From positions 171,579-235,578 of the forward strand of contig JALVVR010000048.1 of the NCBI GenBank assembly GCA_027023305.1: DNA of 64,000 nt, read 5' to 3'. Shown one piece after another: positions 4,032 to 49,965 of the stretch. Source of the stretch: Campylobacterales bacterium. GTDB lineage: Bacteria > Campylobacterota > Campylobacteria > Campylobacterales > QNZT01. Below the pieces are notes generated by a model, which had not been told where the DNA came from, ran no database searches, and saw nothing but the letters and a program-made list of their open reading frames with translations. Numbering within the stretch: position 1 is the stretch's first letter; each line of letters begins with the position of its first letter. Position numbers and translations under genes: made by a program.

Positions 4032-5918
4032 TTACATACCTGGTTTATAAAATACTACAAACATAAGTAGCACTACTAAACCAACTACCATCCATTTTAA
4101 GTTTTTAGATAAATTACCACTCTGCATAGCAGTTGATTTACCACCTAATTTATAGATAATAGCTGCTATACCATCAACTGAGGCATCTACTATCTTCATA
4201 TCTATCTTTTCCCAAGCTATTTTAGAAAGTTCATAGTATGGTTTAGTAATAACTTTCTCATAAAACTGTGGAATATAATACTGATTAAGTAAAAGAGAGT
4301 GAATAGGAGTTCCCTCAAATAAATCTTTAAGCTTATTATTTCTAAATTTCAACACTGCAAATACTATACCACCAAGAGCTATTCCCAAAGTTACAACAAG
4401 TAAGAAAAGGAAAGTTCCTGTACTTACTTCTGGCTCGTATTCTGGTAAAAACTCTGTAACAAAATGAACAAAACTATGTTCAAAAAATCCAGCTATAGTA
4501 GCCAAGATTGCAAGTGGTGCCATAGCAGCAATCGCAAACCATTTTGCTTCATGAGGATGAGCACCTATCTCTTTATATCTAGGTTTTCCAGTAAACACTA
4601 TCATGACAAGTCTAAAACTATAAAATGCAGTCATACCAGCACCTAACCATAACATTGCCCAAAGTACATAGTGATGTGAACTAAAAGCAGTCTCTAAAAT
4701 CTTATCTTTTGAGAAGAATCCAGCAAATGGATAAATACCAGCAAGTGCCAAAGATGCTACTGTCATGATAATCATAGTCCACTTCATCTCTTTTCCAAGT
4801 GCACCCATTTTTTTGATATTTAACTCATCATGCATCGCATGCATAACATTACCTGCACCTAAAAATAAAACTGATTTAAAGAAAGCATGAGTCATCAAAT
4901 GAAATAGTGCTATCCAATAAGCTCCAAGTCCTCCAGCAACAAACATATATCCAAGTTGTGAAAGAGTTGAGTAAGCGATTATTTTTTTCAAGTCATTGTT
5001 TACCAAAGCCATAGAAGCTGCAAATACTGCAACAAAAGCTCCTACCATAGCTATAATAAATCCAATCTCCGGAATAGTTTGATATATAGGAAAACTTCTA
5101 ACAACTAGATAAACTCCAGCTGTTACCATTGTAGCTGCATGAATCAAAGCAGAAACTGGAGTTGGACCCTCCATAGCATCAGCTAGCCAAGTATGTAGTG
5201 GAAATTGAGCCGATTTTCCCATAGCACCAATAAATAAAAATATACCAATAAGTACAACTGTTGAATGAGATAAACTACCAACATGAGCAAATACGACATC
5301 ATAATCTAAACTTCCAAGATTCCAGTAAATTAAAAAGATACCAATAAGCATACCAAGGTCTGCTATTCTGTTCATGATAAATGCTTCATTTGCTGCCCAT
5401 GATGGAGATATAGCTGGGTAAACCTCTCTCGGTAAATCCTCTTTGTGATACCAAAATCCAATAAGCAACCAAGAACAAACACCAACACCTTCCCAACCTA
5501 TAAAAAGTCCTAAGAAATTATCACTCATAACAAGTATCATCATGGAGAAAACAAAAGCTGATAAATAACTAAAAAATCTGTTAAAACTCTTATCATGCTC
5601 CATATAGTAGTTTGAGTAAATATGAACTAAAGCAGAAACTGTTGTAACTGTTACCATCATGATAACAGAAGCCTGATCAACTACAAATCCAAAGTCAAGA
5701 TGAAAGTTTCCTGCACTAATCCAGTTAAAAAGTTTTGATTTTACTATATGCTCACCATCTACATAAAAAAGCAATCTCATAGATGCAAACCAAGATAAAG
5801 CTAAAAGAGATGATGTTACTACTCCAACAAAAAGTTTCTTAGGTGTTGTAGCAAACAAAGCTGCAAAAAGTGAACCAACTATTGGTGCAAAAAGTGCTAT
5901 ATATAAATATTTTTCCAT
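4032..5918 (-). CDS. nuoL: NADH-quinone oxidoreductase subunit L (complex I)
   Basis: 628-residue distal antiporter-like subunit (ND5 family). It shows GWEGVGVCSWLLIGFWY near residue 140, FPLHTWLADAMEGPTPVSAL near residue 245, and AYSTLSQLGYMFVAGG near residue 315. The hydrophobic C-terminal extension, with the lateral helix and an anchoring final membrane segment (WMVVGLVVLLMFVVF), is present. It lies directly after nuoK with a 2-nt gap. Confidence 0.97.
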   Translation of the reverse strand: MEKYLYIALFAPIVGSLFAALFATTPKKLFVGVVTSSLLALSWFASMRLLFYVDGEHIVKSKLFNWISAGNFHLDFGFVVDQASVIMMVTVTTVSALVHIYSNYYMEHDKSFNRFFSYLSAFVFSMMILVMSDNFLGLFIGWEGVGVCSWLLIGFWYHKEDLPREVYPAISPSWAANEAFIMNRIADLGMLIGIFLIYWNLGSLDYDVVFAHVGSLSHSTVVLIGIFLFIGAMGKSAQFPLHTWLADAMEGPTPVSALIHAATMVTAGVYLVVRSFPIYQTIPEIGFIIAMVGAFVAVFAASMALVNNDLKKIIAYSTLSQLGYMFVAGGLGAYWIALFHLMTHAFFKSVLFLGAGNVMHAMHDELNIKKMGALGKEMKWTMIIMTVASLALAGIYPFAGFFSKDKILETAFSSHHYVLWAMLWLGAGMTAFYSFRLVMIVFTGKPRYKEIGAHPHEAKWFAIAAMAPLAILATIAGFFEHSFVHFVTEFLPEYEPEVSTGTFLFLLVVTLGIALGGIVFAVLKFRNNKLKDLFEGTPIHSLLLNQYYIPQFYEKVITKPYYELSKIAWEKIDMKIVDASVDGIAAIIYKLGGKSTAMQSGNLSKNLKWMVVGLVVLLMFVVFYKPGM

Positions 5919-47394: not shown

Positions 47395-47440
47395 TTTTTC
47401 TCCTTTTTATATTGTTAAGAGTATCTTAGTAAGTTTTTTG

Positions 47441-47455
47441 GACATATAGTGACCG
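47441..47455 (-). promoter_or_regulatory. Shared 15-bp site upstream of rtcB
   Basis: CGGTCACTATATGTC on the minus strand, separated from the rtcB ATG by 46 nt. It differs by one base from the site before the rtcB2 leader ORF, at identical spacing. Its TATAT core could overlap the -10 element, so it may be an operator or an activator-promoter element for the WYL-type regulator encoded at 49990. Confidence 0.6.
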
Positions 47456-47474
47456 AAAGTTATTTATTTTTGAT

Positions 47475-48188
47475 TTAGCACTTTTTAACATCTCTTTTTT
47501 TAGGAAGTTTTTTAAAACTATAACAGTCAAATCCCTTACCTTGAGCTAAAATCTTATCATCTATCTGCTCTAATTCTGTATCTTCTCTTTGTGCTCCTAA
47601 ATACATACTAAGTTTTTGAAAAGCTTCCATAGGTGGCACTATTTTAGCAAACCTGTACTTTTTTAGCTGAGGATGAAGAATTGTTTTTATCATTTCTTTT
47701 ATAGTATCATTTTTCACACACTTTGATGACTCAACAACAAAATAAGCTACATCATACAATTCAAAAATCTTTTTATACTCCCAAAACTTTTCACTAAAGT
47801 ACTCTTTAGCTATATTTGTTATAGAGTGTTTTTTACCAAATAAACCAAATTTATAACCTATGTTTTCTAACATTATTTCTTTCGTTGAAGATATATGCTC
47901 TTTTAGATAAATCTCAAATGACTCTAAATCATAAAAATACTCATCTCTTTCACTACCCTCTATCTCTACATGAATAAAAGGATAAATCTCACCACAAAAG
48001 CCTACAACATCAAAAAACAACCATATCTTAAACCACTTTTGCTTTTTAAAGATAGAGAAAGACAAAGGCTCTCCCCATCTACAATCTTCTTGTACTACTT
48101 TAGTTACTCTTTCAAACCTTAATTTTTCATCTATTCCATAAGCTATGCCTATATCATAGTAGTCTTGGAATTTTGAGATTATTTTCAT
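47475..48188 (-). CDS. Uncharacterised protein coupled to prfH
   Basis: 237 residues, soluble. It opens with KIISKFQDYYDIGIAYGIDE and contains a GFCGEIYPFI strand and many aromatic residues. I have the impression of a scattered family in bacteria and phages with the same start, without known function. No catalytic motif can be named. Its ATG overlaps the prfH stop by 4 nt, making it the third gene of the rtcB2-prfH operon and a likely partner in RNA repair or translation rescue. An 80-bp gap with the shared site separates it from rtcB. Confidence 0.65.
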   Translation of the reverse strand: MKIISKFQDYYDIGIAYGIDEKLRFERVTKVVQEDCRWGEPLSFSIFKKQKWFKIWLFFDVVGFCGEIYPFIHVEIEGSERDEYFYDLESFEIYLKEHISSTKEIMLENIGYKFGLFGKKHSITNIAKEYFSEKFWEYKKIFELYDVAYFVVESSKCVKNDTIKEMIKTILHPQLKKYRFAKIVPPMEAFQKLSMYLGAQREDTELEQIDDKILAQGKGFDCYSFKKLPKKRDVKKC

Positions 48189-48781
48189 GTCAAAACCTCC
48201 TTAAAATCCTCTCCTTCAAATACTTTTATACTTTTACCTCTCTCTATCTGTTTCCCTTCTTTCCAATACTTAGTTTTCAAAGCACTAATATTTTCTTGTT
48301 CTTTTAACTCTATCTTTTGCATAAGTCTCTCTAAAGCTATCTTTTTGTTTAGATGCTGACTTCTTTCATCATAACTTATAGCTTCAACTCCCAAAGGTTC
48401 ATAGATAGCTCTTACTCCTGAACAAGTAGTATTTACATGTTGTCCACCTTTTTTAGGGCTTTTCATAGTTTGATATATCACATTTTTTGTGTCTACTATT
48501 AATTGCTTTTGACTTTCAACAATATTCAGTGAAAAATACCAATTTTTTCTTTTATGTTTTGGTCTAAAGGGACTTTGACATCTCCAAAGATATGTTCCTT
48601 CAAGTGCCAAAAGTCCCTCATCACTGCTTTCTAAAAGTATAGATTTATATCCATCTTCACATCTTGCATACTCTAGTTTAACTATTTCAAAAGTATATCT
48701 ATCTTCTAACCAATCTAAAAAGTAAAACAATGCTCTGCATACCTCTTCAACACTATTTCCACTACTTATAGATACTAACAT
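48185..48781 (-). CDS. prfH: Peptide chain release factor H homologue
   Basis: 198 residues. It is a class I release factor relative with only the ribosome-binding catalytic domain; the peptidyl-hydrolysis motif reads GGQHVNTTCSGVRAIYEPLG (~residue 120), with ERSQHLNKKIALERL after it. The codon-recognition domain of RF1/RF2 is lacking. PrfH is known to release peptides from ribosomes whose 16S decoding region was cut, so that the partner RtcB can reseal the rRNA. Its gene lies 3 nt after rtcB2. Confidence 0.93.
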   Translation of the reverse strand: MLVSISSGNSVEEVCRALFYFLDWLEDRYTFEIVKLEYARCEDGYKSILLESSDEGLLALEGTYLWRCQSPFRPKHKRKNWYFSLNIVESQKQLIVDTKNVIYQTMKSPKKGGQHVNTTCSGVRAIYEPLGVEAISYDERSQHLNKKIALERLMQKIELKEQENISALKTKYWKEGKQIERGKSIKVFEGEDFKEVLT

Positions 48782-48784
48782 CTG

Positions 48785-49843
48785 CTACTCCTTATAAGTA
48801 AGTATTGGACAAAAAGTTGCTACTACTTTTACCAATCCTGCATCTACTAAGTCATTTATGACAATATCTATATTTTTATATGCTTGAGGTGCTTCTTCAT
48901 AAAGTAGTTTACTATCTTGGCACAACACACGAGAACCAATACTTGTACGAGTCAAGTCTGCTTTGGTATAGTGGTTTTTTAGTTTTGCTTCTGCTGAGCT
49001 TCTTTCCCATTTTCTTCCAGCTCCATGAGCTAAAGAGTAGTTAGACTTTTGTGTATGCTCTGTTGGAACAACTAGGTAACTCAAACTTCCTCTGCTACCT
49101 GCTATGATAACTGCACCCTTATCAGTAGGAGTTGCTCCTTTTCTGTGTAGCCATCCATATTTTGTTTTAAGTATGCTGTTATGTGCTGTATCACTTACTG
49201 TGCTGATAGAGGTTTCAACTTTTATGGCTTTTAGTAATCTTCTAGCTATCTCTTGTCGACTTTGTTTAGCAAACTCTATTGCCTTGTCATGATTTACTAG
49301 ATAATCTTCTGCCTCTTTTTGACTTAACCCTTCAGAAGGATTGTACTTTCCTGCAACTTTGTCAAAAATTATCTGCCCAAAATTACGAGAACCACTGTGT
49401 ATCAAAAGATACATTGACTCTTTTTTACATCTTAATCTTTCAAAAAGTGTTGTATTTACTACCTCATTTACTAAGTGTAGTTCTGCAAAGTGATTTCCTT
49501 TGCCTATGCTTCCTAAGTGATAACCTAGATATGGAGTATCAATATCAACATCATCTAAACTATCTATCTTTGAAAGATACTTAGCAAATCTCTCTACTTT
49601 TATCTTTTTTGGTTTTAGTGGTACTTCAAAAAGGCTCATACCACAACCTATATCCCCAGCTATCAAGTGTGGATAAACTCTATCACTAAGAACTGCCATT
49701 CCATTTGGTACAACACCAACACTAAGATCAGGCAGTCCTACTACTTTTTTTACACCTTTAAATCGTGTAATCTTTTTTAATGCCTCAACACTTCTTATAT
49801 CTATCCAATTTTTCTGTGAAGTGATAATTGTTAAATTGTCCAT
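48785..49843 (-). CDS. rtcB2: RtcB2-type RNA ligase paired with PrfH
   Basis: 352 residues, shorter than rtcB. Active-site elements: AGDIGCGMSLFEV, GKGNHFAELH, LLIHSGSRNFGQ, a HNSILKTKYGWLHRKGATP loop and YSLAHGAGRKWERS with the guanylylated histidine. The shortened form belongs to the PrfH-linked clade. Its ribosome site (AGGAAAG) and start lie inside a translated-looking leader ORF (49785-49904), so its translation may depend on the leader. The transcript probably covers rtcB2-prfH-237-residue gene. Confidence 0.92.
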   Translation of the reverse strand: MDNLTIITSQKNWIDIRSVEALKKITRFKGVKKVVGLPDLSVGVVPNGMAVLSDRVYPHLIAGDIGCGMSLFEVPLKPKKIKVERFAKYLSKIDSLDDVDIDTPYLGYHLGSIGKGNHFAELHLVNEVVNTTLFERLRCKKESMYLLIHSGSRNFGQIIFDKVAGKYNPSEGLSQKEAEDYLVNHDKAIEFAKQSRQEIARRLLKAIKVETSISTVSDTAHNSILKTKYGWLHRKGATPTDKGAVIIAGSRGSLSYLVVPTEHTQKSNYSLAHGAGRKWERSSAEAKLKNHYTKADLTRTSIGSRVLCQDSKLLYEEAPQAYKNIDIVINDLVDAGLVKVVATFCPILTYKE

Positions 49844-49904
49844 TATCTTTCCTATTATATTTTTGTTTTATTTGTCTGTTTGTTTTTGTTTTTGTTTGTC
49901 TCAT
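49785..49904 (-). CDS. Leader ORF (39 codons) overlapping the rtcB2 start
   Basis: The ATG at 49904 has a near-perfect AAGGAG site, better than that of rtcB2. The encoded peptide begins MRQTKTKTNRQIKQKYNRK. Of the first 19 codons, 4 are AAA, 3 CAA and 3 ACA, in an almost C/A-only tract. It ends 59 nt inside rtcB2 in another frame, so a ribosome on it must pass over the rtcB2 ribosome site. It could be a regulatory leader peptide sensing loss of A-ending-codon decoding tRNAs. A longer upstream frame from 49997 lacks a ribosome site. Confidence 0.5.
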   Translation of the reverse strand: MRQTKTKTNRQIKQKYNRKDNGQFNNYHFTEKLDRYKKC

Positions 49905-49950
49905 GTTTGACTCCTTATTTTTTGATAAAAAAATGTTACAATAAGTTGAT

Positions 49951-49965
49951 GACATATAGTGTCCG
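49951..49965. promoter_or_regulatory. Shared 15-bp site between rtcB2 and the WYL regulator
   Basis: CGGACACTATATGTC on the minus strand, with an inverted-repeat core (GACA-N5-TGTC). It lies 46 nt before the leader ORF ATG on one side and 24 nt before the regulator ATG on the other. With the copy upstream of rtcB it is the best candidate binding site for the regulator. Confidence 0.6.

Follow-up and report, generated by a model that had tools for sequence, protein, structure and literature searches.

Two RNA ligase genes of a Campylobacterales bacterium stand in separate transcripts preceded by the same short site, next to a divergent gene for a WYL regulator. Does that regulator control both transcripts, and if so, does it switch them on or off? 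The window, by which we mean the whole stretch of 64,000 nucleotides that was analysed, carries an operon consisting of a leader ORF, rtcB2, prfH and a gene for a 237-aa protein of unassigned function, with the first site lying between this operon and the wyl gene on the opposite strand (Table 1). The PrfH-linked ligase is named RtcB2 in the literature (PMC9223846), and the pair belongs to the RtcB2-PrfH ribosome-repair module: PrfH adjoins the PrfH-type RtcB here, and the two are adjacent in 12 loci. The gene for the 237-aa protein is kept in four related loci, and in three of them it is the first gene behind the wyl-divergent operator. The protein has strongly conserved ends (MKIISKFQDYYDIGIAYG...KGFDCYSFKKMPKK) and is kin to the phage family phrog_4243; a sequence search gave no convincing PDB relative, and its structure model (pLDDT 39) is too poor for use. 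The locus is not an RtcR/sigma54 Rtc operon, as RtcR (PF06956) and RtcA (PF01137) are both absent from this genome by profile search.

Table 1. Features of the window and RNAs at related loci (positions in the window unless a locus is named).
Feature	Position	Strand	Basis
WYL regulator, DeoR-type HTH + WYL + WCX, 303 aa	49990..50901	+	PF08220, PF13280, PF25583 over cut-off
Operator 1, GGACACTATATGTCA, GGACA-CTATA-TGTCA	49950..49964	-	pattern scans, motif recurrence in relatives
-10 TACAAT, divergent wyl promoter	49937..49942	+	same position in relatives
-10 TAACAT, leader/rtcB2-prfH transcript	49933..49938	-	11 nt after operator 1; offset-11 peak in relatives
Leader ORF, 39 codons, A-rich, strong Shine-Dalgarno	49785..49904	-	overlaps rtcB2 start in another frame
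RtcB, PrfH-linked type (RtcB2), 352 aa	48785..49843	-	PRK09588 408 bits and TIGR03073 361 bits, over cut-off; PF01139
PrfH, release factor H	48185..48781	-	TIGR03072 145 bits, best match (cut-off 167); PF00472
237-aa protein, function unassigned	47475..48188	-	phrog_4243, E 2.8e-13
Operator 2, GGTCACTATATGTCC, GGTCA-CTATA-TGTCC, upstream of long rtcB	47440..47454	-	pattern scans, motif recurrence in relatives
-10 TAAGAT, long-rtcB promoter	47423..47428	-	11 nt after operator 2
Second, long RtcB, 443 aa	46063..47394	-	PF01139 281 bits
YrlA/tRNA-like RNA	L051:7964-8430; L061:176-640; L063:5434-5826		
YrlA/tRNA-like RNA	L074:10730-11000; L083:9330-9600; L120, 1500 down to about 1050	- (L120)	
tRNA-Ser(GCU) gene, own candidate WYL operator + TATAAT	L063:2790-2932		

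An earlier note on this DNA had described one 15-bp site, each copy followed by exactly 46 nt to a start codon, and had taken the identical spacing to indicate a promoter-operator common to both transcripts and belonging to the divergent WYL regulator. Both 15-mers are present on the minus strand (49965-49951 and 47455-47441), at 46 nt from the leader ATG (49904) and the long-rtcB ATG (47394). Moved by one base, they become near-palindromes, each one base short of a perfect GGACA-N5-TGTCC. The full-genome count that the note had set as a check was performed as a pattern search, like all our genome-wide counts: GGACACTATATGTCC with at most one mismatch has two matches in the 1.82-Mb assembly, both of which are the window sites. 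One perfect-armed site elsewhere, GGACAAAATATGTCC at C11:38921, falls within a coding sequence, and no good -10 was found at the correct position there; the credible sites of this genome are the two in the window. The window statistics taken alone are modest, with 0.96 matches expected within three mismatches, and on that figure one could argue for a chance likeness of two AT-rich intergenic stretches. The whole-genome scan and the recurrence of the site at orthologous promoters rule this out, and we give it practically no credence; the site is certain because of the comparative evidence.

The comparison was made with relatives of the regulator at 44 loci on named contigs of Campylobacterota (Sulfurovum, Arcobacter, Nitratifractor, Sulfurospirillum, Sulfurimonas and others) and with 399 genomes of the order. 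The two sets overlap (L051, for instance, is the same genome as G391) and include near-duplicate loci (L058/L059, L074/L083), hence the counts are not independent. The relatives carry the site in the interval that separates wyl from the repair operon and also, as an independent occurrence, upstream of the second rtcB. Counted from the palindrome, it stands 45 nt before the ATG at both window sites, 44-48 nt before the ATG at 16 promoters of the long rtcB, and 43-46 nt before the leader ATG at 12 loci with the PrfH-linked rtcB. By contrast, TANNNT occurs exactly 11 nt after the operator in 37/37 target promoters of a hand alignment, which share the code GGACANNATAYGWCM-N11-TANNNT in the direction of the transcript. 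Therefore the invariant is the distance from operator to -10, and the 46 nt of the earlier note is a by-product that we discard as a conserved quantity. Nor are the spacers quite as unlike as it had held: in each, a weak -10 occupies the same position and a strong Shine-Dalgarno sequence precedes the ATG.

The same distance emerged from an unbiased scan, in which a matrix trained only on wyl-upstream 15-mers was run over all loci and TATAAT-like hexamers were counted at each offset from the site: offset 11 gave 26 hexamers, against 1.2 expected. At the loci of distant WYL paralogues, where the motif is altered (AGACAAAATATGTCT), the count at offset 11 was 20, against 1.3 expected. The operator is also oriented; across the 37 promoters GGACA and ATA are near-invariant and the proximal arm YGWCM is looser. 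Its TGTC lies 16 nt from the -10, equal to the distance in the PafBC consensus tTGTCRgtg-8nt-TannnT (PMC5656591). No sigma70 -35/-10 pair was found at either window promoter, where the -10s are weak, while many relatives have a consensus TATAAT. The operator stands where a -35 would be, with the rigid spacing to the -10 that PafBC and DriD promoters also have; this points to activation, where the earlier note had left the sense of the operator unspecified. On the regulator side, operator 1 not only takes the place of the -35 in the promoter of the prfH operon but also lies just 3' of the wyl -10, which ends 7 nt before it; in the wyl transcript the operator spans roughly +2 to +16. The two -10 boxes overlap by 2 bp. 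At the wyl starts of relatives the motif is TGACATATTTTGTCC, directly after a TATAAT/TACAAT box. A sigma54 promoter (GG-N10-GC) was also considered and ruled out, since the site reads GG-N10-TC and RtcR is missing.

That the operators belong to the divergent WYL regulator, as the earlier note had proposed, is supported by the position of the site in relatives and by the co-occurrence of regulator and RtcB. The regulator was found in 10/399 genomes and RtcB (at the Pfam cut-off) likewise in 10, nine of which are common to both (Fisher 1.5e-16, phylogeny ignored). Both exceptions fit: the RtcB of G271 is an ordinary full-length one that lacks the motif, and G014 is without RtcB and keeps the operator before an ncRNA-slipin transcript. 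Allowing up to one mismatch, we counted the composite promoter 23 times in the 10 regulator-bearing genomes and twice in 12 that lack the regulator. Could the sites be promoter elements of some other regulator or sigma factor, with wyl a mere neighbour? Binding by this WYL protein is something that we infer, and the genome encodes a second WYL protein, 28% identical. However, site and regulator co-occur across genera, and the distant paralogue loci combine altered AGACA-N5-TGTCT arms with the same N11-TATAAT, as expected if the regulator co-evolves with its site. We therefore regard a different factor as very unlikely.

The domains and the fold matches place the regulator among the WYL-domain regulators with DeoR-type HTH, WYL and WCX. 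In a fold search with its AlphaFold model (pLDDT 83), DriD came first (E 6e-16), followed by PafBC on RNA polymerase, and the CapW and BrxR structures ranked below them. Since all matches are about 15% identical to the regulator, they support the class and not the ligand. Repression is the main rival to activation, because WYL repressors exist and sigma70 promoters of Campylobacterota often have no clear -35, so that a repressor over the core promoter could give the same geometry. The WYL protein would then sit over the -35 region at each repair promoter and over the start of wyl itself until a ligand released it, in the style of BrxR and CapW, which are themselves among the fold matches (7qfz and 7tb6). 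The operators do overlap core promoters in all directions, the consensus -10s of many relatives may do without an activator, and in Anabaena the RHH protein TrcR represses rtcB, slipin and trn (PMC10272220). Yet repressor sites need no exact spacing to a -10, and N11 holds in 37/37 promoters as well as in the distant paralogues; moreover the site is oriented, its spacing matches that of PafBC, and the nearest folds are those of DriD and PafBC. We consider repression rather improbable. From site position, spacing and fold we infer, with good confidence, that the regulator activates an RNA-repair regulon in the manner of DriD and PafBC; it is a likely member of the WYL activators.

In the activation model, the WYL regulator would activate two transcripts, one carrying the leader, rtcB2, prfH and the 237-aa gene, the other the long rtcB. 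The WYL domain would bind a damage signal, most likely broken RNA, and the signal-bound dimer would occupy GGACA-N5-TGTCM in place of the -35 box, bringing the housekeeping RNA polymerase to the -10 exactly 11 nt downstream, like PafBC and DriD. RNA fragments are suspected as the WYL ligand from the content of the regulon. At the wyl border, switching on repair would turn wyl down, because the operator lies just past the wyl -10 and both -10s overlap; the regulator thus probably also limits its own promoter.

What else the promoter may control can be read from the relatives. There it precedes an RNA of about 300-450 nt made of YrlA/tRNA-like modules, with a Band_7/slipin protein encoded behind it; the genome of the window itself yielded no slipin orthologue. 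The modules have Rfam tRNA matches, and with 42.6 bits (E 3.4e-8) against RF02553 (YrlA), below the gathering score of 69, the RNA resembles YrlA modules while falling outside the membership of that family. Its 5' hairpin (GTGCAAAGGnAGTT) and its 3' part (AGAGCTTATCT) are both conserved, and the slipin gene comes next. The tRNA-Ser(GCU) gene of L063, having its own candidate operator, is apparently a damage-inducible spare tRNA. The composite promoter also stands before the 237-aa gene in relatives and, in the more distant G354, upstream of a cca-like gene (133 nt away) and at 45 nt from a gene that is ClpP-like by inspection only. One scan of viral contigs returned no relative of the regulator.

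Several other loci carry variations on this arrangement. The composite promoter at L125 (G172:C67:89731) stands before a tRNA-like RNA whose acceptor and T arm resemble those of selenocysteine tRNA (E 0.05), and before a protein, 431 aa or longer, that weakly matches a prokaryotic RING finger. At L055:1-250 and L056 (about 4880-5028), what the wyl-divergent promoter makes instead of a leader ORF is a short RNA containing a long hairpin (GTAGGTGTGACCATGTCACAC...GTGCGACATGGTCGCACCTAC), with a folding energy of -36 to -39 kcal/mol over 120 nt. The distant WYL paralogues of L086-L094 have many AGACAAAATATGTCT-N11-TATAAT promoters, including some before genes resembling ClpX, ClpA and RecD2 and also before wyl itself, the latter of which might conceivably mean positive autoregulation. 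To judge from these promoters, the same code serves a further regulon here, larger than the first.

The wyl-divergent transcripts share a further trait. In 15/15 examined (the window, L051, L053, L054, L058-L060, L063, L068, L069, L072-L075 and L083), the transcript begins with a strong Shine-Dalgarno sequence and an A-rich ORF of 25-54 codons (A 58%). This ORF stays open past the start of the first gene in all 15, the gene lying in the +1 frame relative to the leader in 14. Before the gene start there are no stops in the leader frame (15/15), whereas both other frames have them (30/30). The peptide sequence is not conserved. The leader ORF is probably translated. A programmed frameshift from leader into rtcB2 is ruled out, as the gene frame has stops inside the leader in 15/15.

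Control of bacterial RNA repair is known so far from RtcR/sigma54, plus TrcR in Anabaena, and a WYL factor would be the third. No WYL-controlled rtcB regulon was found in the titles, abstracts and passages covered by our literature search, and an earlier mention at the level of gene neighbourhoods may exist. A promoter code of this precision makes the regulon readable from sequence; one switch would link ribosome repair by PrfH/RtcB2, a second RtcB, the YrlA/tRNA-like RNA, slipin and a spare tRNA. More tentatively, and with considerable doubt, we propose that the regulator is a direct sensor of broken RNA in the form of tRNA or rRNA fragments, as the RNA counterpart of the ssDNA-sensing PafBC/DriD, and that it runs a complete translation-repair regulon of two RNA ligases, PrfH, the YrlA/tRNA-like RNA with slipin, and the spare tRNA. 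The leader ORF might then form a second layer, in which the state of the ribosome gates ligase synthesis. Whether WYL domains act as RNA-damage sensors is a question that this regulon makes directly testable.

Parts of this arrangement are known from other bacteria. PrfH and a PrfH-type RtcB also share one operon in the RtcB2-PrfH module of E. coli ATCC25922 (PMC9223846); the second RtcB, the 237-aa protein, the leader ORF and the dedicated WYL regulator set the present locus apart. The Salmonella rsr-yrlBA-rtcBA operon (PMC7790460) is likewise an inducible RNA-repair regulon with RtcB and a divergent regulator, and its Y-RNA has a counterpart in the Y-RNA-like RNA of relatives of the window. 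Its regulator RtcR is a CARF/sigma54 AAA+ activator, whereas here the system is of the WYL/sigma70 type, RtcR and RtcA are lacking, PrfH is present and slipin occurs in relatives. In the Anabaena TrcR regulon (PMC10272220), one regulator similarly governs its own gene together with rtcB, a gene for a slipin and a tRNA array, but TrcR is one of the ribbon-helix-helix repressors, acts close to the -10 and is unrelated to the WYL regulator. In mycobacteria, PafBC uses a TGTC 16 nt upstream of the -10 to replace the -35 (PMC5656591), contacting the -26 position and inserting between sigma domain 4 and promoter DNA (PMC11804915); SiwR, which shares this geometry, uses the -26 element too (PMC10693628). 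PafBC is a heterodimer that reads one half-site and answers DNA damage in Actinobacteria, in contrast to the single WYL gene and two-armed site described here. The best fold match, DriD of Caulobacter crescentus (PMC12340889; PDB 8tp8, 9pfq), has a homologous HTH-WYL-WCX architecture and a pseudo-palindromic site that overlaps the -35 at a bidirectional promoter shared with the regulator gene, its spacing to the -10 being fixed. DriD differs in its 20-bp site (15 bp here), in being about 15% identical to our regulator, in answering ssDNA to drive DNA-damage genes, and in reportedly lacking self-regulation. The promoter geometry of PafBC and DriD would extend to another phylum.
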